Shown here: positions 26,331 through 47,529 of the stretch, piece after piece
Numbering within the stretch: the first letter of the stretch is position 1
Layout: each line of letters starts with the position of its first letter
NCBI GenBank assembly: GCA_029262055.1
Contig: JAJDAD010000059.1
Location: forward strand, 1 to 64,000
DNA: 64,000 nt
Origin: Candidatus Zhuqueibacterota bacterium
GTDB taxonomy: Bacteria; Zhuqueibacterota; Zhuqueibacteria; Oceanimicrobiales; Oceanimicrobiaceae
Direction: 5' to 3'
Position numbers and translations under genes: made by a program
The notes under the pieces: generated by a model
The model's input: only the letters and a program-made list of their open reading frames with translations
Database searches by the model: none
What the model was told of the DNA's origin: nothing

Positions 26331-27442
26331 AAAAGAAAGTCGTCCATGTCACCTTTAATATGGGAATCGGTGGCGCGGAGAGGGTAATAGCGAATCTGGT
26401 GGAAAACACCGATGCGGCGCGGTTCGATGTTTCAGTCCTGTGCCTGGAACAGCCCGTGGGTCCGTTCGGCCAGAAATTGCGAAAAAAGGGGTATCGTGTA
26501 GATAGCCTTTACCGCAGGCCAGGATTTGATATCAGATTGCTTGCCCAAGTGCGAGAATATCTGGTACAAGAAAGAGTCGATATCTTGCATTGCCACCAAT
26601 ATACCCCTTATGTCTATGGCGTGCTCGCCGCCGCCTTCCATAGAATTAAGGTCATCTTTACGGAACATGGCCGCTTTCACCCGGATCGCCGCCGCCTTAA
26701 AAGAGTACTGCTGAATCCGCTGCTTAGCAAGTGTACCGACCACCTGACTGCTATCTCTTTGGCAACACGCGCTGCCCTAATTAGATTCGAAAACTTTCCT
26801 GGCCACCGGATCAGCGTGATCTACAACGGCATCGTTCCGGGCACCAACGGACTTCCGGTCAACGGTTCACTGCGCGACGCGTTAGGCATTCCCGTAAAGG
26901 CTCACGTACTCGGCTCAGTCGGCAGGTTAGACCCTATCAAGAACCAGGCGATGATGCTCCGCGTCCTGAAGCAGCTACTGGAGAAATATCCGGATACGTT
27001 TCTGGTACTGGTGGGCGATGGGCCTGAGCGCGAGAATCTGCAGGAGCTGACCCGAAGGCTGAAGCTCACTTCCAGGGTGATTTTTGCCGGCTACCAGGCA
27101 GACCCGCAACTCTACTACGGTATCATGGATATCTTCCTGCTGACCTCACACAGCGAAGGCACCGCCATGACTCTTCTTGAAGCTATGGCGGCAGGGTTGC
27201 CGTGCGTGGTAACTGATGCCGGAGGCAATGCGGAGATTATCGAGAATGACGGTACCGGCCTGGTTGTCCCGCGTGGCTGTGAGGAAGACCTGGCAAACAG
27301 AATCACGAGACTACTCGCCGACAACGCGAACATGAGCAAATTTGGTGAAGCTGCACGGCAGCGATTTGAGAAGGAGTTCACGGCGAAGAAAATGACCCGT
27401 AGCTACGAGACATTGTATGACACAGCAGGGCGGTTGAATTGA
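26327..27442 (+). CDS. Glycosyltransferase family 4, XrtA sugar transferase 2 type
   Basis: The 371-residue GT-B enzyme begins with VVHVTFNMGIGGAERVI, has FTEHGRFHPD in the N-terminal domain, and SVGRLDPIKNQ and the EX7E region HSEGTAMTLLEAMAAGLPCV in the donor domain. It pairs with the preceding gene as in other exosortase A loci. It starts at GTG 26327, overlapping the upstream stop, and its own stop overlaps the TTG of the following gene, so the three are translationally coupled. Confidence 0.9.
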   Translation: MKKKVVHVTFNMGIGGAERVIANLVENTDAARFDVSVLCLEQPVGPFGQKLRKKGYRVDSLYRRPGFDIRLLAQVREYLVQERVDILHCHQYTPYVYGVLAAAFHRIKVIFTEHGRFHPDRRRLKRVLLNPLLSKCTDHLTAISLATRAALIRFENFPGHRISVIYNGIVPGTNGLPVNGSLRDALGIPVKAHVLGSVGRLDPIKNQAMMLRVLKQLLEKYPDTFLVLVGDGPERENLQELTRRLKLTSRVIFAGYQADPQLYYGIMDIFLLTSHSEGTAMTLLEAMAAGLPCVVTDAGGNAEIIENDGTGLVVPRGCEEDLANRITRLLADNANMSKFGEAARQRFEKEFTAKKMTRSYETLYDTAGRLN

Positions 27443-29964
27443 CCTTTCCCGCTCCGATCCTGGTTGAGGAATCAGCGGGCTATGCCCGTCGAGATGAGCC
27501 GGTGACGCTGGGCATGCCCTTGCCGCAGGGCCTGCTGTCGGATACGGACGAATTGTTCCTGCGCCATCCCAAAACAGGTCCGGTCGCATTACAAACCCAG
27601 CCTCTGGCACACTGGCCCGACCACAGCCTGAAATGGCTCCTGCTCGATTTTCAAGTCTCGGTTGGAGCGAGGGGGGCGATAGAACTGCACCTCAGTACTG
27701 GACCGGCCACTTCCGGGGCAGAGTGCGTGCATGAAATCACAGTCTTGCAGGAAAAGGGTGAGTTAATCGTCGATACCGGCAAAGCCCGCTTTACTCTCAA
27801 CCAGGAGACCTTTCAGCCGTTCAACTCTGTCCGCGTCGGCGGCCATGAAATCCTCGACCCTGCAGCCGGCGGCCTGTCTATGACGGATGCAGACGGTTGG
27901 CCATGCCGTGCGCGAATCAATGCAATTGAGTCCGAGACGCAGGGACCGCTCCGCTCCACTCTGAAAGTCGCAGGCAATTTCACCACAAGCAGAGGTAAGG
28001 TGCCGGCAAACTTCTTTTCCCGGATACATTTTTATGCCGGACACAGTCATGTGAAAATCGAGTTCACCATCCGCAATCCACAGGCGGCTAAGCACCGGGG
28101 CGGCTTGTGGGACCTGGGCGATCCGGGCTCAATCTATTTTGACGACTTGTCATTGCATGTCGGGTTCAACACAAGCACCCAAGGTGCTATTGAGTGGAGG
28201 TCAGAACCGTCCGGGGCCGCTGAACACACCTCCGCTCGCGACCTGGTCATTTACCAGGATTCCAGCGGCGGGGACAACTGGCAGAGCAGCAATCATGTCA
28301 ACCGCAACGGCGAGGTCCGGCATTCGTTCAAAGGATACCGGGTCTCTTCAGGGGACAGAATCATCAAAGAAGGCCTGCGTGCCAGCCCAGTCATGACAGT
28401 CGGTGATAGAGAGAAACAGATAACGGCGGCGGTGCAAAACTTCTGGCAAAACTTTCCGAAAGCGCTGGAGGTCCGGGACGGAACACTGACAGTCAGGCTT
28501 TTCCCGCGCCAATATAATGACCTGTTTGAACTGCAAGGCGGCGAACAAAAAACACACACGTTGTATTTGAGTTTTCAGGCTAAGCTAGCTGCAACAGCAG
28601 CAGCATCTAACGGATGTCATTTCCGCGCAAGCGGGAATCCAGGCGGAGTGAGTGAGGGCCTGCTAAACAAACCTGACTTGCAATGGATAGACCATCCCCT
28701 CATCGCGCGTTGCACGCCTGACTGGTACGCGGAAAGTGGAGCTGTTCCCAACCTCGTACCGGAACCAGAGAACGCGGACAGTGAGCTGACCCGGCTTGTT
28801 GCTTGTGCCATCGCAGGCGACAACACTTTTTTTGACCGGCGCGAGATAATCGATGAATACGGCTGGCGCAATTTCGGTGAGCTCTACGCCGACCATGAGG
28901 CGGTCTTCCACCAGGGCCCGCAGCCTCTGGTGTCGCACTACAACAACCAGTATGACGCTATTCTGGGGTTTCTGCGGCAGTTCCTGGGCTCCGGCGACCG
29001 GCGCTGGTTCCGGCTTGCCGACCAGCTTTGCAGCCATGTCAGGGATATCGACATCTATCATACCGGGGCGGATCGCCGGGCTTACAACCATGGCCTGTTC
29101 TGGCACACGAACCACCATCTGGATGCAGCGACCTGCACACACCGCTGTTTTTCAGCAGCACATGTGGATGCTGACAAAAGAAAGCAATACGGTGGGGGTC
29201 CGTCGCCCTCCCATCTTTACACCTCCGGGTTGCTGCTGCACTATTATCTCACCGGCGCGGTCTCGTCATACGAGGCGGTGCAGGAGCTGGCTACCTTTGC
29301 GGAAGCCAACCTCGCTCTGCGGAAATCCTTGCAACAGCGGCTGCGCAATATGGCGAAGCGGGCCAAAGATAGCGTCACCAATCCCCGGCACGCAAACCCG
29401 ACAGGCAAGACCAACCAGGTGTACGGCCTGGAAGGCCCGGGCCGGGCCAGCGGCAACGTTTTGAACACCTTGCTGGATGGATACACCCTAACCGGCCGGC
29501 AGCGCTATCTGCGGCAGGCCGAAGCATTGCTCCGAACCTGCATTCACCCCCGGGATAATATCGCAAAGCGCGACCTGCTCGATGTGGAGAACCGCTGGAT
29601 GTACACCATTTTCCTGCAGGCGCTGGGCAAATATCTTGATCTGAAAACAGAGCTTGACGCGACGGACGCGTCCTTTGAATATGCCCGCCAGAGCCTGCTG
29701 CACTATGCCGACTGGATGGTGGAGAATGAGTATATCTATCTCGACAAGCCGGAAAAACTGGAGTATCCGAATGAGACCTGGGCGGCGCAAGAGTTACGGA
29801 AAGTTCAGGTGCTGCAGACGGCAGCCAAGTACGGGCCAGCCGAAAAGAAGGTCAGACTCCATGAGCGTGCAAAATATTTGTTTCAGCGTGCTGTGAACAT
29901 GCTTGGGGAGTTTGAAACAAGAATACTGACCCGGCCAGTCATACTAGCAATGTCAAGTTCATAA
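27439..29964 (+). CDS. PcRGLX/YetA-like polysaccharide-degrading enzyme (RIFT-barrel N-terminus)
   Basis: The 841-residue protein opens with a RIFT-barrel-like domain (about 5-90, ARRDEPVTLGMPLPQG and HWPDHSLKWLLLDF), as in exo-rhamnogalacturonan lyase-like proteins. A beta-sandwich region follows (to about 385), then a long helical region likely to be an alpha/alpha toroid (about 450-830). No signal peptide is present, which is unusual for such enzymes. The assignment comes from the N-terminal pattern; the substrate is unknown. A palindromic repeat interrupts the coding sequence in frame (residues about 393-402). The last 140 codons are duplicated at 31301-31787. It starts at TTG 27439, coupled to the preceding gene. 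Confidence 0.72.
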   Translation: MTFPAPILVEESAGYARRDEPVTLGMPLPQGLLSDTDELFLRHPKTGPVALQTQPLAHWPDHSLKWLLLDFQVSVGARGAIELHLSTGPATSGAECVHEITVLQEKGELIVDTGKARFTLNQETFQPFNSVRVGGHEILDPAAGGLSMTDADGWPCRARINAIESETQGPLRSTLKVAGNFTTSRGKVPANFFSRIHFYAGHSHVKIEFTIRNPQAAKHRGGLWDLGDPGSIYFDDLSLHVGFNTSTQGAIEWRSEPSGAAEHTSARDLVIYQDSSGGDNWQSSNHVNRNGEVRHSFKGYRVSSGDRIIKEGLRASPVMTVGDREKQITAAVQNFWQNFPKALEVRDGTLTVRLFPRQYNDLFELQGGEQKTHTLYLSFQAKLAATAAASNGCHFRASGNPGGVSEGLLNKPDLQWIDHPLIARCTPDWYAESGAVPNLVPEPENADSELTRLVACAIAGDNTFFDRREIIDEYGWRNFGELYADHEAVFHQGPQPLVSHYNNQYDAILGFLRQFLGSGDRRWFRLADQLCSHVRDIDIYHTGADRRAYNHGLFWHTNHHLDAATCTHRCFSAAHVDADKRKQYGGGPSPSHLYTSGLLLHYYLTGAVSSYEAVQELATFAEANLALRKSLQQRLRNMAKRAKDSVTNPRHANPTGKTNQVYGLEGPGRASGNVLNTLLDGYTLTGRQRYLRQAEALLRTCIHPRDNIAKRDLLDVENRWMYTIFLQALGKYLDLKTELDATDASFEYARQSLLHYADWMVENEYIYLDKPEKLEYPNETWAAQELRKVQVLQTAAKYGPAEKKVRLHERAKYLFQRAVNMLGEFETRILTRPVILAMSSS
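28616..28642 (+). repeat. REP-like palindrome inside a coding region
   Basis: The segment contains TTCCGC-GCAA-GCGGGAA (28621-28637) with GTCAT before it and TCCAGG after it. This is the layout of the widespread extragenic palindromes with a CCCGCgcaaGCGGG core. Here it is translated, giving CHFRASGNPG between two domains, and the frame continues through it. Confidence 0.75.
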
Positions 29965-29971
29965 ACATTTT

Positions 29972-31093
29972 ATGGTAAAATCTTTAGTGATGTCTCTTGT
30001 CAAGCCCCCTTTTTACAAACTAGTAGACTACTTATTGAACACGAATTTCTTCCGTGAGTCAGTTCATAGGGCTACACGGGATCTTTTTAACCAACAAGCT
30101 CCAGACTTAGTCAATGCCTTTGAAATGCCAGCGCCTCCCCAGGACTATCGGCTAGGCATGAATGAGACTGTTACGCTGTCTAGTCAACCTGCAATCTTCA
30201 TCACGGCACGCTTTCGCTCAGGCTCTACATTCCTGTGGCATATTTTTCGACAAATTGATGGCATCACCGCTTTTTATGAACCCCTGAATGAGAATCGTTG
30301 GTTCCTGAGATCCGCCAACGAGCGCAGCATCGACCCAACCCACTTTGCAGTCGAGGATTATTGCCGTGAGTATTGCGGAATGCAAGACCTTGATCGGCTA
30401 TATCAAGAGGCATGGTGCTCAAAGTATCTCTATATGGATGCGAAGTCCTACGATCCGAAATTGTTTCAATTCATCACTGAGTTACTCAACCGAGCACCCA
30501 ACCGACCAGTTTTACAATTCAATCGTATGGACTTCAGGTTGGCTTGGCTTAAAGCGTATTTCCCAAACACGAAAATCATCCACCTTTATCGTCACCCGCG
30601 CGAGCAATGGCTGTCGATTTTGAAATGTGAAGCTATCGATGTGCCTTTGAATTGGAGCCGTTCAATTCAAAAGGAACTTCCATTGCTATACACTTATCAG
30701 TGGGCAAGAGATCTACGTCACGTTTTTCCTTTTCTGGATCCGGAGTCCGCTCAGCATCCCTATGCCCTGCACTATTATCTATGGCGTCTTTCTTATGCAT
30801 TTGGCAGACAATATGCGGATTATTCTGTTGGATATGAGCAGTTAGTCGACACTTTTGACGATGTCTTGCGCTGTCTTTTTGACGGGTTGGATATTTCTGC
30901 CGATGTTGAGTGGTTACACAAGCTAAACCGAGGGCATAGGTCACTTGGGTACCACGACTATGCACCAGAGTCGTGGTATGAGGATATAGAAAATGACTGC
31001 GAGTCGGTCTTGAAATGTTTTTCCCCCCCCACCAGATCATCGCCCTCGGAGATTTTTCAGAATTCAGAACTGCTTCCTAAGGGGGCGCGCTAG
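29972..31093 (+). CDS. PAPS-dependent sulfotransferase
   Basis: The 373-residue protein should transfer sulfate from PAPS to a sugar hydroxyl or an acceptor protein. The 5'-phosphosulfate loop is ARFRSGST at 79-86 and the 3'-phosphate site is YRHPREQW near 206-213, both standard for the family. No signal peptide is evident. Seven bases separate it from the lyase-like gene. A run of eight C (31023-31030) lies close to the C-terminal coding end. It is flanked on both sides by copies of the 3' end of the lyase-like gene, suggesting arrival by recombination. Confidence 0.87.
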   Translation: MVKSLVMSLVKPPFYKLVDYLLNTNFFRESVHRATRDLFNQQAPDLVNAFEMPAPPQDYRLGMNETVTLSSQPAIFITARFRSGSTFLWHIFRQIDGITAFYEPLNENRWFLRSANERSIDPTHFAVEDYCREYCGMQDLDRLYQEAWCSKYLYMDAKSYDPKLFQFITELLNRAPNRPVLQFNRMDFRLAWLKAYFPNTKIIHLYRHPREQWLSILKCEAIDVPLNWSRSIQKELPLLYTYQWARDLRHVFPFLDPESAQHPYALHYYLWRLSYAFGRQYADYSVGYEQLVDTFDDVLRCLFDGLDISADVEWLHKLNRGHRSLGYHDYAPESWYEDIENDCESVLKCFSPPTRSSPSEIFQNSELLPKGAR

Positions 31094-31300: not shown

Positions 31301-31787
31301 ACCCCGGGATGATATCGCAAAGCGAGACCTGCTCGATGTGGAGAACCGCTGGATGTACACCATTTTCCTGCAGGCTTTGGGCAGGTACATCGACCTGAAA
31401 TCAGAGCTGCGCCAGCAGGACCCGATGTTTGATTATGCCAAACAGAGCCTGTTGCACTATGCCGGCTGGATGGTGGAGAATGAGTATGTTTATTTGACAA
31501 AACCCGAGAAGCTGGAGTATCCGAATGAGACCTGGGCCGTGCAGGAGTTGCGGAAATGTCAGGTGCTTTGTACCGCAGCCCGATACGCAAAAGGAAGGCA
31601 CAATGTCGGCTTTGTACAGCAGACCCGGCATTTCTTGTCGCGCAGGTTGGTCAGCCTGCGCAAGTTTGAAACCGGTACGCTAACGCGGCCAGTTGTGCTG
31701 GCCTTGTTAACCAGATACCGTAAAGTGAATCACGATGGAAAATCAGAAGAACCCGACGGAATCAGTGCAAAAGCAACAGCTACATGA
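31301..31787 (+). pseudogene. Partial duplicate of the 3' end of the PcRGLX-like gene
   Basis: From 31301 the sequence matches 29546 onward. For the first 75 bases it is almost identical, and then it diverges while keeping frame (VENRWMYTIFLQALG, then WMVENEY and EKLEYPNETWA). It encodes about the last 140 residues of a related protein and has no 5' part. Its end overlaps the start of the methyltransferase gene. It is a remnant of a paralogue or of a replaced allele and is unlikely to work alone. Confidence 0.85.
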
Positions 31788-32475
31788 CATGCTTTGGAAG
31801 ATTCTTCGCAAATTCGTAAAGAACATGCGAAAGAGACTTCATGCAAGAATAGGAATCCTCCTTGCATATCTAAAGACGTTCTTGAATCTTATAAAGAACC
31901 GCAAGAAGAACAACAGAAGTCTGGAAATCGGTCCTGGACAATTTCCACTGTCGGGCTTCGAAACACTAGATATAGAGGCGGACATAAATGTTGACTATAG
32001 ATGGGATGCCTCGAAGAGATTACCTTTCAAAGATAATACATTCGACGTGATTTACGCGAGCCATATCTTGGAGCATGTGCCTTGGTACCAATCCGAAAAG
32101 GTCCTGACTGAGTGGGTTCGTATATTGAAAAGAGGAGGAGTGTTAGAGGTTCTAGTGCCAAACGGTTTACGAATATGTAAAGCGCTGGTTGATTATGAGA
32201 TTCATGGCGAAAACTATATTGATGAAGATGGGTGGTATAGATTCAACGTTGAGAAGGATCCCTGCGTGTGGGCAGCTGGTCGACTTTATACATATGGGGA
32301 TGGCACAGGCATACGCGATCATCCTAACTGGCATTTGGCACTTTTCACACCGAGATATTTGAAGGTGGTCATGACGAACTCCGGGTTGCATGAAGTCAAG
32401 CAAATGGAACCAAACGAAGTCCGGGGGTACGATCATGGGTGGATTAACCTTGGAATGAAGGGGCTAAAGAAATGA
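31735..32475 (+). CDS. SAM-dependent methyltransferase
   Basis: The 246-residue protein has a basic, helical N-terminus (1-60), the SAM motif SLEIGPGQFPL near 63-73, RWDASKRLPF, IYASHILEHVPW and LKRGGVLEVLVPNG, typical of glycan-cluster type-11 methyltransferases. Its base composition is clearly more AT-rich than that of the upstream genes. The stop overlaps the next start (ATGA), so the two were probably acquired together. Confidence 0.82.
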   Translation: MENQKNPTESVQKQQLHDMLWKILRKFVKNMRKRLHARIGILLAYLKTFLNLIKNRKKNNRSLEIGPGQFPLSGFETLDIEADINVDYRWDASKRLPFKDNTFDVIYASHILEHVPWYQSEKVLTEWVRILKRGGVLEVLVPNGLRICKALVDYEIHGENYIDEDGWYRFNVEKDPCVWAAGRLYTYGDGTGIRDHPNWHLALFTPRYLKVVMTNSGLHEVKQMEPNEVRGYDHGWINLGMKGLKK

Positions 32476-33446
32476 ATTTTCGCAATGTGGCTGACCTGAA
32501 TGCATGCATTTTGGACAATATTGGTGTCATTCCCAAAGATATCGACTTAGTGGTTGGAATTCCTCGTAGCGGATTATTGGCAGCGAATCTAATTGCCCTT
32601 CACTTAAATCTCCCACTTGCTGACATAGACGGGTTTCTCCGTGGCCAGATATTCCAAATGAGCTTCAATCGAAAACCAAGTGAACGTATGACAGGCCGTA
32701 GGATAGCAAAAGCGCTAATCGTCGATGATAGTCTATGTTCTGGTCGTGAAATGCAGAGAACGCTTCAGCGTATATCCAGATCTGAATTGACCTGTGAAAT
32801 TGTTACTTTGGTCGTATATGTGGTTCCCGAACAAAGGCAGAACGTAGACATCGCATTTGAAATGTGTCAGCTTCCACGGATTTTTGAATGGAACTTAATG
32901 CACCACGGATCTTTGGTAAATGCTTGTGTTGATATTGATGGCGTTCTTTGTCGAGATCCGACAGACGATGAAAATGATGACGGAGAGCAGTACATTCATT
33001 TTCTAAAATCAGCAGAGCCCTATTTGTTGCCAACATTACCTGTCGGGTATCTAGTGACGTGCCGTCTCGAAAAATATAGGGGGGAGACAGAGGCATGGCT
33101 TCATGAACATCATGTGAAATATCGGGAGCTAATAATGATGGATATGCCAGATAAGGCTGCACGCATCAAGTCTGGTTCTCATGGAAGATTCAAAGCTATA
33201 GTCTATGACAAAACAAACGCCTCCCTTTTCATAGAAAGCAATATTGATCAGGCGTTTGAAATTTCTAATAGAAGCTGCAAGCCTGTGGTTTGTATTGAAT
33301 CTCGTAGTTTGGTCTTGCCTAGCTTGGATAGCATTGGCAAGAAACTACTAAGGAAAGTACTTAGGTCGGGCAAGTATCTGACTACTTCACTCTCTACCAG
33401 GTTAAAACACAAATTGCTCGAAAGGACGGTTGATTATTACCGGTGA
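32472..33446 (+). CDS. Phosphoribosyltransferase-HAD hydrolase fusion
   Basis: The 324-residue protein joins two domains. The N-terminal part (about 1-135) looks like a type I phosphoribosyltransferase, with VVGIPRSGLLAANL and the PRPP loop ALIVDDSLCSGRE. The C-terminal part (about 150-280) has HAD-like motifs: VDIDGVLCRDP (motif I), VTCR as motif II, and FIESNIDQA at the position of the acidic motif IV. This suggests transfer or release at a phosphoribosyl group and then dephosphorylation, perhaps to make an unusual sugar donor, but the activity is unknown. It is coupled to the methyltransferase upstream by an ATGA overlap. Confidence 0.78.
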   Translation: MNFRNVADLNACILDNIGVIPKDIDLVVGIPRSGLLAANLIALHLNLPLADIDGFLRGQIFQMSFNRKPSERMTGRRIAKALIVDDSLCSGREMQRTLQRISRSELTCEIVTLVVYVVPEQRQNVDIAFEMCQLPRIFEWNLMHHGSLVNACVDIDGVLCRDPTDDENDDGEQYIHFLKSAEPYLLPTLPVGYLVTCRLEKYRGETEAWLHEHHVKYRELIMMDMPDKAARIKSGSHGRFKAIVYDKTNASLFIESNIDQAFEISNRSCKPVVCIESRSLVLPSLDSIGKKLLRKVLRSGKYLTTSLSTRLKHKLLERTVDYYR

Positions 33447-33543: not shown

Positions 33544-35028
33544 TTGAGCCTAAAAGAACACACAATAAGAGGTGTTGGCTGGACGACCATCGGTCGGGCT
33601 GCCGGACAGCTTACCTCTTTCGTTGTTTCGATTATCCTTGCCCGGCTGTTGACTCCGGAAGATTTCGGCCTGTTCGGAATGGTTCTCGTCTTTGTAGGCT
33701 TTGCCACCTTGTTCGGGAATCTCGGTTTCGGTGCAGCGCTTGTGCAAATGCAACAGGTGGAAGAACGTCACCTGTCCTCGGTCTTTTGGCTCAACATCAT
33801 CACTGGGTTTGTCCTGGCGGTTTCGGTGCTGGCTGGTTCCTCGCTGGTGGCCGCCTTTTATGGTGAACCAGCGTTGCGTCCGATGATGATGCTCCTGTCG
33901 ATTGGGTTCCTGGTCAGCCCGATCGGTATGGTCCACCGCGCGATTTTGAGCCGCAAGATGGACTTTCGTCTGCCTGCTTTAATTGAGATGGCCGCGGCCT
34001 TCATTTCGGGTGGAATTGCATTGACGTTAGCACTAAATGATTTCGGTGTCATGAGCCTGATATGGCAAAACCTCGTGCTTGTGAGTTTGACCGCTTTCGG
34101 TTTATGGGGAGTCAGCTCTTGGCGCCCCAAGTTTACTCTTGATATTTCAGCCTTGAAGGAGCTATTCGGTTTTAGCGGAAACTTGCTCGGGTTTGACGTG
34201 ATCAATTATTGGCTGCGCAAAGGAGACGACCTGTTGATCGGGAAAGTGCTTGGCTCAGCCTCTTTAGGCATCTATTCCAGGGCCTACAGTCTCATGATGT
34301 TGCCAATCCAGCAGATTGCCTGGGTAATGGGTGGTGTTATGTTTCCGGCACTCTCCCGGGTGAAACACGACCGTGAGAGAGTCAAACGTATTTACCTGGA
34401 AGCCATATCCATGATCGCTCTGGTGGCTTTTCCGTTGATGCTCGGATTGCTGGTTGTTTCCCGTTCTTTTGTTTTGGTATTATTCGGTCCGAAATGGCTT
34501 GAACTCATTCCTGTCCTGCGGATTCTGTGTCTTGTGGGCGTGGTACAATCCATCGGCACAACGGTTGGGTGGATCTATCAATCGCAGGGACGGACAGATT
34601 GGATGTTGCGCTGGGGCATTGCGGCTGGGGCGCTCATCCTGGCGAGCTTCGGTGCCGGAGTCTGGTTGGGATCAGCCAAAGCAGTGGCCGGCTGCTATGC
34701 CTTTACGACCTGTATAGTTCTAATCTATCCAATGTTTGCCATTCCCGGTAAGCTGATCAATCTGACGTTCCTGGAGGTTGTGACCAGCTTGAGCGGGATT
34801 CTGGGATGTGCGTCTTTGATGGCGGCCCTGGTAGCCATAGTTGGGATGATGCTCCCTGCGATATGGCCTGGTTGGGCATGGTTGCTGATTCAGATAGCGG
34901 TCGGTGTTGGCGCATATGTGTCAAGCATTCATTCATTCAAGATTCGGGCCTATGTACAACTACAAGGGATCATAAGAGAGCAGTGGCAGCGCAGAACAGC
35001 ACTGAGACCTGCTTCTATGTCGTCCTAA
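33544..35028 (+). CDS. Polysaccharide flippase of the MOP superfamily (Wzx/teichuronic-acid exporter type)
   Basis: The 494-residue polytopic protein has about 12-14 hydrophobic segments. Its opening, SLKEHTIRGVGWTTIGRAAGQ, and the following LARLLTPEDFGLFGM are diagnostic of the lipopolysaccharide-biosynthesis flippases. It should move the lipid-linked repeat unit across the inner membrane. The start is a TTG at 33544, as in many relatives aligned by eye. The next start is 12 bases after its stop. Confidence 0.92.
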   Translation: MSLKEHTIRGVGWTTIGRAAGQLTSFVVSIILARLLTPEDFGLFGMVLVFVGFATLFGNLGFGAALVQMQQVEERHLSSVFWLNIITGFVLAVSVLAGSSLVAAFYGEPALRPMMMLLSIGFLVSPIGMVHRAILSRKMDFRLPALIEMAAAFISGGIALTLALNDFGVMSLIWQNLVLVSLTAFGLWGVSSWRPKFTLDISALKELFGFSGNLLGFDVINYWLRKGDDLLIGKVLGSASLGIYSRAYSLMMLPIQQIAWVMGGVMFPALSRVKHDRERVKRIYLEAISMIALVAFPLMLGLLVVSRSFVLVLFGPKWLELIPVLRILCLVGVVQSIGTTVGWIYQSQGRTDWMLRWGIAAGALILASFGAGVWLGSAKAVAGCYAFTTCIVLIYPMFAIPGKLINLTFLEVVTSLSGILGCASLMAALVAIVGMMLPAIWPGWAWLLIQIAVGVGAYVSSIHSFKIRAYVQLQGIIREQWQRRTALRPASMSS

Positions 35029-35040
35029 ACCCAAAGGAAG

Positions 35041-35988
35041 ATGCCAGAATCCAGACCCCCAGTTTCAGTTGTCATTCCTTGTTACAATGGTGTTGAATTC
35101 CTACCGGAGGCAATTGACTCGGCCCTTGCGCAATCCTATCCCCCCTTGGAAGTACTTGTTATCGATGATGGTTCTACGGATGATTCCGCTACAATCGCTG
35201 AATCTTACGGTGGTCCGGTGAGGGTTATTCGGCAGCATAACCAAGGGGAGTCAGTGGCCCGTAATCGAGGGATAGATGAAGCCAAGGGGGACTGGATTGC
35301 TTTCCTGGATGCAGATGACGTTTGGGATTCTGAGAAACTTGAATTACAATTGGAGACTATAGGCAATCTGCCGGATACTGTATGCCTTCATACCGGGTTT
35401 TACCTGTTTGGCTCAAGAAACGGAATTGCCGAACGGCCACAAGAGATCCTGTCAAACAAATTGGGGGTTGAAGACTTGCTCCTAAGACCCTTTGTGCATC
35501 CGTCAACTGCTCTTGTCCGCAATGTCCTGCCCGTTAGGTTTCCAGAATGGACGAGTACTGCCGAAGACATGATCTATTTCGCTGAAATCTCTTTGTATGG
35601 GAGTATTAGTTATATTGCTTCTCCGTTAACAGGGTATAGAAGTCATTCAGCACAACAAACCTCAGCCCCAGAACACTCTGTTAGACACATAGCCAGCCGT
35701 CTTGAATGGATAGTCAAATCAGAGGACAAGTTGACAAGTTTTGACTTAATACAAATCAGGAAACAGATTAAGCAACAATTAATTGACTGGCTTCTTCTTG
35801 CGAAGTATCAGCGAGATTGGGAGAAATATTGGCTGTTGAGAGAATACGCTGTGCGATTAGAGTGGAATCCAGACACTATGAAAGTCTTGAATGAAAGAAT
35901 TTATCCAAGGTTTTCGTACAAAATCAAAGATCTCCTGGACGAGATCACCAAGAGACTTTTGAATGTGGTGGCTGTCAAGCTTCGATAA
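35041..35988 (+). CDS. Family 2 glycosyltransferase
   Basis: The 315-residue protein shows VSVVIPCYNGVEFLPEAIDSAL, VIDDGSTDDS, ARNRGIDEA and the metal motif FLDADDVW, the standard GT-A order. No membrane segment is clear, so it is probably peripheral. Its stop is directly followed by the next ATG with no gap, so the two genes are translated together. Confidence 0.9.
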   Translation: MPESRPPVSVVIPCYNGVEFLPEAIDSALAQSYPPLEVLVIDDGSTDDSATIAESYGGPVRVIRQHNQGESVARNRGIDEAKGDWIAFLDADDVWDSEKLELQLETIGNLPDTVCLHTGFYLFGSRNGIAERPQEILSNKLGVEDLLLRPFVHPSTALVRNVLPVRFPEWTSTAEDMIYFAEISLYGSISYIASPLTGYRSHSAQQTSAPEHSVRHIASRLEWIVKSEDKLTSFDLIQIRKQIKQQLIDWLLLAKYQRDWEKYWLLREYAVRLEWNPDTMKVLNERIYPRFSYKIKDLLDEITKRLLNVVAVKLR

Positions 35989-44563: not shown

Positions 44564-45991
44564 ATGCGGAAAGTTAGAATAGAAAAGATTTTACTCCTAA
44601 ACCCTCCTTTTGATGGCCTCTACATCCGGGATCAATTCTGTAGCCATCTTTCGAAAGGAACCTATTACTGGCAGCCGCTCGACTTGCTCTGCCTATCCGG
44701 GTGCCTCCATGCTGACGGTTATGAGATGGCCGTTCTCGACGCGGTTGCCGAAGGCCTGAGTATCGAAAAGGCCCATGCGCGCATCGATGAATTCAGTCCG
44801 GACGCCGTCATCTTTCTCACGGGCTGCGATTCATTCGACGAGGACATTGCGTTCGTCGAGGAGACAAAAAGGCGAGGCGCAAAAGTAGCGATTGGTATCG
44901 GAGATATTTTGCGTGAACAGGGTGAGGAGCTGCTCAGAAAACACCCTGCACTAGACGCCTGTTTGCTGGATTTCGTCACGCATGGAGTGCATTCCTACTT
45001 GCAGGGCAATCTCGACAAAGCCGAAAACATGATGGTCCGGACTGGCACCAAGGTCCGCAGAATCCCGGCCAGGGACAAGCAAAAGCTTTTCAGCGTTCCG
45101 CCGCCAAGATATGATCTGTTTCCACTAAAGCAGTATCGGCTACCGCATAACCGGTATCACCCTTACGCAACGGTCCTGGCATCGAGTAACTGTCCTTACG
45201 GCTGCTCATTCTGTCCATTTGCACGAACAGCTTATCGTGCCCGTGAAGCAGATGATGTATTGAGGAACTTGGAGGTTATTCGAAATATGGGGATACGTCA
45301 GGTGCATTTTGCCGACTGGACCTTTGCGGTACACCGAAAGCAGACTATGACGCTTCTTGAGGGGATGATCGATGCGGGGTTTGACTTTACCTGGGACTGC
45401 CTCTCACGGGTGGACCTCATGGATCATGAATTGATGTCTTTGATGAGACGCGCGGGATGCGAACTGATTGAATTCGGAGTTGAGTCTGGCAGCCAGGCGT
45501 TGCTGGACAGATACGAAAAAGACATTACAATCGAACAGATTCGGCGAGCCTTTCAAAGTGCGAAGGAACTTGACATTTCAACACTCGCCACCTTCGTACT
45601 AGGCCTCCCGGACGAGACCAGAGAAAGTCTGCAAAAAACCCTGGCTCTGGCGCTTGAGATTGAACCGACCTTTTGCTCTTTTAATATGGCCAGTCCTCAG
45701 CCGGCGACCCAACTGCGGCGAGAACTGATCGATGGCGGAGGCCTGAACCCCGATGCGCCCGCCATTCTTGACTCTTCTCGATCCGTTCCGGTTTTTTCAA
45801 CATCATACCTCTCTGCTAAAGAGGTTTATGAATTCCGAAATCACGCAGTTCGACAATTCTATTTGCGTCCATCCTACGTAGTCAATAGGCTTCGCAATAT
45901 CCGCTCAATGGAGGAACTGCAGAACCACATCTTCAATGGTTTCTCCTTAGCGTGGCAGACAGTCGTCAAACCTTTGAAATATGGTAATTAG
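44564..45991 (+). CDS. B12-binding-domain-type radical SAM protein
   Basis: The 475-residue enzyme has an N-terminal region like a cobalamin-binding domain (about 8-150, LLLNPPFDGLYIRDQF). The radical SAM motif CPYGCSFC follows, with Cys210, Cys214 and Cys217 binding the 4Fe-4S cluster. The TIM-barrel signatures VHFADWTF, EFGVESGSQ and FVLGLPDET come after. Such enzymes methylate or rearrange unactivated carbons; here it may build an unusual sugar or lipid. The stop overlaps the next start by one base. Confidence 0.87.
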   Translation: MRKVRIEKILLLNPPFDGLYIRDQFCSHLSKGTYYWQPLDLLCLSGCLHADGYEMAVLDAVAEGLSIEKAHARIDEFSPDAVIFLTGCDSFDEDIAFVEETKRRGAKVAIGIGDILREQGEELLRKHPALDACLLDFVTHGVHSYLQGNLDKAENMMVRTGTKVRRIPARDKQKLFSVPPPRYDLFPLKQYRLPHNRYHPYATVLASSNCPYGCSFCPFARTAYRAREADDVLRNLEVIRNMGIRQVHFADWTFAVHRKQTMTLLEGMIDAGFDFTWDCLSRVDLMDHELMSLMRRAGCELIEFGVESGSQALLDRYEKDITIEQIRRAFQSAKELDISTLATFVLGLPDETRESLQKTLALALEIEPTFCSFNMASPQPATQLRRELIDGGGLNPDAPAILDSSRSVPVFSTSYLSAKEVYEFRNHAVRQFYLRPSYVVNRLRNIRSMEELQNHIFNGFSLAWQTVVKPLKYGN

Positions 45992-47529
45992 TGTTGGCTG
46001 ATTCGTCCCAATCTAGAAGCTTGCGCATAATTTCCGTTACGAACGTCGTTAGACAAAAGGGCGTGGAATTGATGCGTTCGAAGTGGGCAATTGTTCTAAT
46101 TCTCGTAATTGCAGCAGGTCTTCGGTTCTGGAGGCTGGCAGACTGGAGCCTGTGGGAGGACGAAGAGACAACTATCTATTTTTCACAACATTTAAGTAAG
46201 CCCTTTCCGAGCTCCTTTCCGATCTTCTTTATGGCCCTCAAATGGATTTATGATTTCACGGGGATTGCAGTTGACGCAGGACGAGCTTTGCCTGCAATCA
46301 TGGGCATTTTGGCTGTTTGGCTGACCTATATCTGCTTTCGCCGGCTGGTTTCCCGTGAAGCAGCCCTTTTGGCCGCGCTGCTCATCGCGATCAACCTCGG
46401 CCACCTGTTTTGGTCGCAGTCCATCCGGTACTATACAATGGTAGTTGTTTTCCAGCTCATGAGTATCTTCTGGTTTCTCAAGGGTTTTGAAACCGGAAGG
46501 TATCGCTTCTTGGTCCTTTCCAATCTGGCCTTAGGCCTGGCACTGCTCACCCACCATACTGCAGTGCTACTGGTTCCGGTTTTTTTCGGTTTCGTTCTAC
46601 TCATGAAACTCAGAGGAGAGACGGGTGGCGCCTATCATGATAGGGGGTATTTGGTATATGGCATCGGTCTGTTGGTCGTGCTGGGATTGTTCGCCTTTAA
46701 CTTTTTTGAGCAACTTGAACTGCAGGTATCGCTTGGAGATCAAGGAGGGATAATTGCCCGCGCGCCTACAGCTTTACAGTTCCTACTCAGATGTGGAGCC
46801 TATTTTGGACTTCCGGTTATCGGGCTTGCTATTGCCGCGGCGTTTCTGGACCACAAGCTAGCAAGACGAATCGTCATCTTTTTCTTGATGGTTGGCGTCT
46901 TTCCGATTGCTTCGCTCACTCTTATTGCAATAGGGAGTTCGGTGGTCAATACTGTCACTGTGAACTGGTATTACGCCATGATTTCCCTCTTCGCACTGAC
47001 CGTTCTGGCAGCCATTAGTCTGGTAACAATTCATAAAAGCGGTCGAAAAGCCATCTCTGTTTCTCTAAGCATTGCTGCCCTGGCGTACTATACGTTCTTC
47101 CTGACCGGTTATTTTACCGACATGTATGGGGATCGTCCCCGCTGGCAAGACGCAACTGAGTATTTGCAACGGGCTGCGAATATAGAGATAGAGTCTGGGG
47201 ACAATCCCGATATCTTTGCCACTGTGCCGGGGGTTACGGCCTACTACCTTGGCGTTAATCCTGCCGAAACCATGGGGCACCCGCTTGTTGAAAGGCTACC
47301 GGCGCAGCCACGTGCGGAGGCCAAGCGGTTACGTGACCAGTGGTTTGTCGTTAAATCAACTCATCTGTCGCCGGAGTGGAGGGAATGGTTTGCTGACCAC
47401 TGTACCCTAACAGGCGAATTCGAAGCCCATACTGGTCCACGGGATAGGACGTTGTTAGTCTACCACTACAAAAGTTCAGCCACCGCCGCCGCTGCTCAGT
47501 CTTCACCGCAGGCAGTGGGTTTGTGGTAG
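45991..47529 (+). CDS. GT39/ArnT-like membrane glycosyltransferase
   Basis: The 512-residue polytopic protein has about 11 hydrophobic segments and the periplasmic-loop motif WSLWEDEETT near 50-60, where the acidic pair is expected in lipid-phosphate-sugar-dependent transferases. The C-terminal 130 residues are soluble. It should transfer a sugar from a polyprenyl-phosphate donor on the periplasmic side. GTG 45991 abuts the previous stop; ATG 46072 is an alternative directly before the first transmembrane segment. Confidence 0.82.
   Translation: MLADSSQSRSLRIISVTNVVRQKGVELMRSKWAIVLILVIAAGLRFWRLADWSLWEDEETTIYFSQHLSKPFPSSFPIFFMALKWIYDFTGIAVDAGRALPAIMGILAVWLTYICFRRLVSREAALLAALLIAINLGHLFWSQSIRYYTMVVVFQLMSIFWFLKGFETGRYRFLVLSNLALGLALLTHHTAVLLVPVFFGFVLLMKLRGETGGAYHDRGYLVYGIGLLVVLGLFAFNFFEQLELQVSLGDQGGIIARAPTALQFLLRCGAYFGLPVIGLAIAAAFLDHKLARRIVIFFLMVGVFPIASLTLIAIGSSVVNTVTVNWYYAMISLFALTVLAAISLVTIHKSGRKAISVSLSIAALAYYTFFLTGYFTDMYGDRPRWQDATEYLQRAANIEIESGDNPDIFATVPGVTAYYLGVNPAETMGHPLVERLPAQPRAEAKRLRDQWFVVKSTHLSPEWREWFADHCTLTGEFEAHTGPRDRTLLVYHYKSSATAAAAQSSPQAVGLW

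Follow-up and report, generated by a model that had tools for sequence, protein, structure and literature searches.

A phosphoribosyltransferase-HAD phosphatase fusion in an XrtA exopolysaccharide locus is a candidate glycan ribosyltransferase

The window is the whole stretch of DNA analyzed here, 64,000 nucleotides of contig JAJDAD010000059.1 from Candidatus Zhuqueibacterota bacterium. It encodes a 324 amino acid protein (32472–33446, + strand, ATG start) in which a phosphoribosyltransferase (PRT) is fused to a HAD phosphatase, designated PRT-HAD. The gene lies in an XrtA/PEP-CTERM exopolysaccharide (EPS) locus. Models for the XrtA polysaccharide deacetylase, the TIGR03087 glycosyltransferase and the exosortase subfamily all score above their cut-offs in this locus, and the FemAB and amidotransferase models score slightly under theirs. 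Upstream is a SAM-dependent methyltransferase (MTase) of the Methyltransf_11 family (31735–32475, + strand) whose stop codon overlaps the PRT-HAD start by 4 bp (ATGA). The next gene downstream encodes a Wzx/MATE-type flippase (Polysacc_synt_3, E 4e-88; 33544–35028, + strand), and a GT2 glycosyltransferase (35041–35988, + strand) belongs to the same gene cluster. The initial annotation had placed the fusion in a glycan cluster, and the XrtA locus, the flippase and the GT2 downstream bear this out. The locus also contains a GT-C type gene (PMT_2, E 9e-10; 45991–47529). A Sulfotransferase_3 family gene within the EPS operon (E 1.5e-10; 29972–31093) suggests that the glycan is sulfated. A literature search found no paper on PRT-HAD in exosortase loci.

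Just upstream of the MTase is a 149 amino acid open reading frame (31338–31787) with 64% identity to part of an 841 amino acid PcRGLX-like protein (27439–29964). The sulfotransferase gene separates the two. The short reading frame looks like the remnant of a partial duplication of the PcRGLX-like gene.

Residues 5–141 (32484–32894, + strand) match Pfam PF00156 (Pribosyltran) above the gathering score (E 1.8e-9), and 14/14 of the first homologues match this model too. The domain contains a PPi loop, GIPRSG (29–34), and a PRPP loop of the DDxxxSG type, VDDSLCSG (84–91), and with PF00156 these are all the hallmarks of the type I PRT superfamily. Foldseek matched the PRT half of the full-length structure model (pLDDT 86.5) to XGPRT and HGXPRT. 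Conservation was examined in 55 non-redundant PRT-HAD homologues, some of them partial, in which R32 (51/51), D86 (54) and G91 (54) are nearly invariant. In XGPRT structures, which represent 6-oxopurine PRTs, the purine is contacted by a lysine and a tryptophan. PRT-HAD does not keep these contacts, the lysine and hood aromatic that mark a 6-oxopurine PRT: residue 118 is lysine in 4/55 homologues and residue 135 is proline in 51/55. Since the purine-contact positions are not conserved, a purine acceptor is unlikely. Conservation and alignment with Sulfolobus HGXPRT (4z1o) delimit a family signature, PRIFEWNLMHH (residues 135–145; 32874–32906, + strand), in the acceptor or hood region, where XGPRT-like enzymes hold their purine-stacking tryptophan. 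W140 (54/55), N141 (51/55) and E139 (47/55) are strongly conserved, and the EWN.MHH motif is the best candidate for acceptor recognition.

The second half of the protein, about residues 146–288 (32907–33335, + strand), is a capless HAD phosphatase domain, assigned by its motifs, AF2 modeling, a PDB profile match and Foldseek. It matches no Pfam or NCBIfam model above threshold in the window protein, nor any Pfam model in the first 14 homologues. All four HAD motifs are present (D154xD156GVLC at 154–160, VT196xR198, K241 and E255-S), along with an ENDDG flap and the segment T196xR198xEKYR. The Rossmann core, DxD, T/S, lysine and acidic motif IV of the HAD phosphatase superfamily are thus all found. 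Among the 55 homologues, some partial, D154 (51), D156 (51), K241 (55) and E255 (54) are nearly invariant. The AF2 model of the isolated domain (residues 146–288) has a pLDDT of 95.5, and Foldseek matches it best to the HAD phosphatase portion of bacterial Pnkp1 (probability 1.00, E 3.7e-3). Pnkp1 was also the single significant PDB match to a profile of the homologues' HAD half (4XRP, E 3e-5). Substrates of the Pnkp1 family are (deoxy)ribose phosphates. PRT-HAD shares with Pnkp1, a component of a bacterial RNA repair complex, the HAD core, the motif spacing and an R..YR..T region after motif II, but it is without the kinase and the RNA repair partners, and its flap (ENDDG) and gene neighbors are different. 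According to a moment calculation and the model, the protein ends in a basic, partly amphipathic tail (about residues 285–324; 33324–33443, + strand), which is missing from most phage members. Contact with the membrane or with a partner is a possible role for this tail.

The PRT-HAD fusion with both active sites is real and not a product of chance. PRPP-loop and HAD motifs had been reported in one 324-residue protein, and PF00156, the HAD motifs and conservation in 55 homologues agree that both sites are intact. Structure prediction, which had been recommended as a check, gave neither a domain without its fold nor one without its active site.

Coupling of the MTase to PRT-HAD, also claimed at the outset, is real and conserved, as the ATGA overlap and recurrent adjacency demonstrate. 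The window MTase family adjoins PRT-HAD in L006, L015 and L081 and in phage contigs L019, L021 and L022. The MTase of L008 was at first counted in this family and was dropped on alignment. An MTase match in L025 was left out of the counts as its ORF is frame-broken. When viral contigs were scanned with the window MTase, 20 close relatives were found. PRT-HAD lies within 4 kb of the MTase in 16/18 viral contigs with usable flanks, compared with 0/60 for weaker MTase matches of the same scan, which served as the control. Two of these 16 contigs look like duplicates of one another, and four were known already from the PRT-HAD scans. In the window's own genome and two others, the MTase is single and adjacent to PRT-HAD. 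Identity matrices of the MTase/PRT-HAD pairs are correlated (r 0.57, permutation p 0.006), with the unrelated L008 MTase included in the calculation.

Homologues with the same fusion, sought as the initial annotation had advised, were found in several bacterial phyla, haloarchaea and phage contigs. Clustering with glycosyltransferases (GTs) held for the bacteria and was not detected for most haloarchaea. A GT or flippase occurs within about 8 kb in 17/27 bacterial PRT-HAD loci versus 3/19 control windows, most of them taken from the genomes that hold these loci (Fisher p 0.002). Flippase homologues adjoin PRT-HAD or lie at most one gene away in L026/L027, L028, L031 and L081. In L006, PRT-HAD and the MTase are situated within a Wzm/Wzt operon, which encodes an ABC transporter. 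Some viral genes extend the fusion. The 806 amino acid protein of L023 joins a GT-A-like N-terminal region, MTase, PRT and HAD; its GT-A-like part was assigned by reading the sequence, and Pfam names the MTase and PRT only. L110 encodes a PRT-HAD-GT4 protein, and L113 (278–1912) and L116 (2672–4279) encode NTP_transf_3-PRT-HAD proteins with a MobA/IspD-like nucleotidyltransferase. No GT was detected nearby in 15/17 haloarchaeal loci, and no conserved neighbor was found there. Because the haloarchaeal copies are mostly solitary, the link to glycans rests on bacteria and phages, and these copies are the main gap in the glycan argument. GTs were present in 13/20 viral MTase loci and in 26/60 control MTase loci, which is no clear enrichment.

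Genomes with two full or nearly full copies of PRT-HAD offer another view of how the domains are related. In 5/5 such genomes one copy is broken in a single domain (paralogues L080, L079/L098, L010/L097, L092 and L095), and another copy is always present in the genome. In G279, G859 and G090 the HAD of one copy has lost or altered motifs while its PRT is intact, and an intact copy lies beside it. Conversely, PRT loops are lost and the HAD is intact in G846 and G849, where the partner copy lies elsewhere in the genome. Only 2 of about 40 single-copy genomes have a changed HAD motif I (L012 and L074). The difference in single-domain breakage between two-copy and single-copy genomes is significant (Fisher p about 2e-5, or 1e-4 when the two Halomarina genomes are counted once). 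Decay of one copy becomes possible because selection is relaxed after duplication; the argument for function comes from the other domain, which stays intact. This pattern of sequence decay fits PRT and HAD acting in turn in a single pathway, in which either activity can be provided in trans. Because these paralogues have a single working domain each, they allow a direct test of the two-step model.

Transfer of ribose-5-phosphate from PRPP to a glycan, followed by dephosphorylation by a HAD enzyme, is established for Hib Bcs3, C. jejuni Cj1432 and the enzymes of K. pneumoniae O antigens (PMC11127046, PMC11231755, PMC10299916, PMC12096443). The initial annotation knew of no defined function for such a fusion; the two-step logic is already defined for the two-domain gPRT-PRP ribofuranosyltransferases (Kelly 2022, as described in PMC11127046, PMC10299916 and PMC12096443). 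PRT-HAD resembles the gPRT-PRP enzymes of K. pneumoniae O4/O7 OPS and the T. composti orthologue (PMC11231755, PMC11127046) in uniting PRT-like and HAD domains in one polypeptide, in its location in polysaccharide loci and in the proposed order of transfer then dephosphorylation through an acceptor-bound phosphosugar intermediate. It is unlike them in that its first domain is a canonical type I PRT (DD..SG) and its second a capless Pnkp-like HAD. Hib Bcs3 (CriT/CrpP) and Cj1432 (PMC10299916, PMC12096443) share with PRT-HAD the PRPP donor logic and 5'-phosphate removal by a HAD domain, and their fusion with another transferase recalls L023 and L110. CrpP, however, precedes CriT in those proteins whereas the PRT precedes the HAD in the window protein. 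CriT is surrounded by three helical bundles and divides the function of the DD pair between D680 and E818, on two loops, whereas the window PRT has a vicinal DD and no bundles. CrpP carries an alpha-helical cap and retains just one aspartate of DxD, the first, whereas the window HAD is capless and has both. The anatomy of the CriT/CrpP type, with its D680/E818 split, bundles and capped one-aspartate HAD, is thus not found in the window protein. Profile searches against the full set of PDB chains, run to E values of 10, did not list the solved gPRT-PRP enzymes, Bcs3 and T. composti, and these were also absent among the 50 Foldseek matches listed for the full-length and HAD models. By analogy, PRT-HAD most likely works like gPRT-PRP enzymes; membership in that group is not claimed.

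We propose that PRT-HAD is a PRPP-dependent two-step O-ribosyltransferase acting on glycans, and we assign this reading a probability of roughly 0.6. The PRT domain would bind Mg-PRPP through the DD/SG and PRSG loops and transfer 5-phospho-ribofuranose to a hydroxyl group at the cytoplasmic face, on an intermediate that is either a glycan or a lipid-linked oligosaccharide. Transfer would probably be inverting and yield the beta anomer. The HAD domain would then remove the 5'-phosphate, with Asp154 as nucleophile and Asp156 as acid/base assisted by T196/R198, K241 and E255, to leave ribofuranose. The likely target of the adjacent MTase is either the added pentose or its acceptor, and the neighboring Wzx flippase would export the finished unit as part of the XrtA-associated exopolysaccharide. 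We infer the PRPP donor, the glycan hydroxyl acceptor, the anomer, the product and the methylation site of this pathway; both folds, their intact active sites, the operon and fusion context, the selective decay of single domains and the MTase linkage are observations. The order suggested by the initial annotation, attachment of a phosphoribosyl group and then removal of a phosphate, is supported as the likely logic.

Glycan O-ribosylation is favored by the canonical, nearly invariant PRPP/PPi loops, by the purine contacts that are not kept and by a full set of HAD catalytic residues that is closest to that of Pnkp1. The GT and flippase neighbors, the fusions, the L006 operon, the MTase linkage and the single-domain decay point the same way, as does the published precedent for two-step logic (PMC11127046, PMC10299916, PMC12096443). 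The reading is weakened by L012 and L074, two single-copy cases in which HAD motif I is changed, by the PRT fold, which usually makes N-glycosidic bonds, by haloarchaeal loci mostly without a GT and the unclear viral GT enrichment, and by the dissimilarity of the sequence to solved gPRT-PRP enzymes. Ribosylation by this logic occurs outside polysaccharides as well: in butirosin synthesis, BtrL and BtrP carry out PRPP-dependent O-ribosylation of neamine and then dephosphorylation, as separate proteins of an antibiotic pathway. The literature search turned up no paper on BtrL/BtrP.

The initial annotation had likened the pair to decaprenyl-phosphoryl-ribose/arabinose synthesis, and a lipid-donor route is a rival reading. 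The PRT would place ribosyl-5-phosphate on polyprenyl phosphate, the HAD would dephosphorylate it, the Wzx/MATE flippase would export it and a GT-C enzyme would then attach the pentose on the outside. Both the three-component system of C. youngae O1 and DPR/DPA synthesis in mycobacteria work in this way (PMC11127046). Use of PRPP followed by dephosphorylation, in a cluster with a flippase and GT-C, is common to the window and to polyprenyl phosphoribose synthases (C. youngae ORF15 with PRP; Rv3806c/Rv3807c). The flippase is the next gene in the window and recurs beside PRT-HAD in L026/L027, L028, L031 and L081, L007 has a weak PMT_2 match directly upstream, and the basic tail could touch the membrane. 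The comparison fits less well when the enzymes are considered, since the known synthases are integral membrane proteins of the UbiA type whereas PRT-HAD has a soluble, Rossmann-like type I PRT of the purine-salvage kind, and neither Pfam nor the fold reveals a UbiA-fold membrane transferase. Moreover, most phage members have no such tail, and their neighbors are soluble GT2, CmcI-type and Nucleotid_trans genes, among which neither a flippase nor a GT-C gene was detected; L006 relies on an ABC transporter; and a Wzx flippase is expected in any such EPS cluster. A lipid donor is therefore a distinctly unlikely product.

We also wondered whether the product might be a nucleoside-like small molecule, the PRT coupling PRPP to a heterocyclic or amine base, the HAD dephosphorylating the nucleotide and the MTase tailoring the nucleoside. 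The closest PRT folds are purine salvage enzymes, the haloarchaeal copies are mostly stand-alone, and PRTase and HAD modules have been proposed to make nucleoside derivatives in Ter systems, phage ones included (PMC7824862). PRT-HAD shares its fold and PRPP loops with XGPRT/HGXPRT (1A95, 1VDM, 4Z1O) but differs in the purine contacts, the fused HAD and the glycan context, which includes GTs, flippases, a sugar-type nucleotidyltransferase and O-antigen ABC transporters as fusion or operon partners. The Ter-type PRTase_2 (PF15609) matches weakly and in single members only, and no Ter gene was seen in the listed loci. PADLOC, which was consulted for a defense role, gave no match for PRT-HAD. The glycan fusions and the lack of purine contacts argue against the unusual nucleotide-like product raised by the initial annotation, and we consider it unlikely. 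Least likely is a regulatory or phosphate-metabolism role, in which the PRT would sense PRPP or a nucleotide and the HAD would be a nucleotidase, tuning EPS synthesis to nucleotide supply. PRT folds act as regulators elsewhere, as in PyrR and GfcR, and PRT-HAD has weak NCBIfam similarity to PRK02277 and GfcR. The absence of a DNA- or RNA-binding domain, the near-invariant catalytic loops in both domains and the phage fusions to GT, MTase and nucleotidyltransferase domains make such a role very improbable.

The family may even form a separately evolved class of PRPP-dependent glycan ribosyltransferases that combines a PRT of the purine-salvage type with a capless HAD resembling that of Pnkp. 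With a dedicated MTase it would make methylated ribofuranosyl glycans, spread among bacteria, haloarchaea and phages with the deepest diversity in phages. We give this broader proposal an even chance. Such a distinct enzyme class would enlarge the small set of pentofuranose routes into bacterial glycans and would extend PRPP-based glycosylation to haloarchaea and phages, with a conserved MTase-PRT-HAD unit traveling in phage genomes. The motif series PRSG ... DD..SG ... EWNxMHH ... DxDGVLC ... ENDDG ... LEKYR would then mark genomes with ribose-containing glycans; proteins bearing it are now annotated merely as "phosphoribosyltransferase family protein".

The same fusion occurs in Verrucomicrobiota, Pseudomonadota, Cyanobacteria, Planctomycetota, Gemmatimonadota, Spirochaetota, Bacteroidota and Halobacteria. 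It is rare. In the window's phylum 1/82 genomes has it and that is the window's own copy, which leaves no close relatives there for a local comparison. It was found in 5/385 genomes of the class of Sphingobium and in 25/242 Halobacteria genomes (about 10%). It was also found in 41 plasmid records, mainly from Rhizobium, Sinorhizobium and Paracoccus, and in many viral contigs; the seven that were inspected contain genes for a terminase, primase, polymerase, recombinase or tail protein. A tblastn search of the INPHARED phage collection found no PRT-HAD. In a maximum likelihood tree of 73 sequences the window protein lies beside a Verrucomicrobia homologue (97/85) and the haloarchaea form one group (82/91). 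Phage sequences are the most divergent and are scattered in this tree, which suggests a phage origin of PRT-HAD under midpoint rooting. In L012 (7397–10640), from a Gemmatimonadota MAG, two radical-SAM reading frames flank a PRT-HAD whose HAD is degraded. On two Rhizobium plasmids (L029/L030, 7819–17422) a 432 amino acid PRT-HAD lies between caspase-family and glycosyltransferase genes, just ahead of a VgrG (T6SS) gene cluster.
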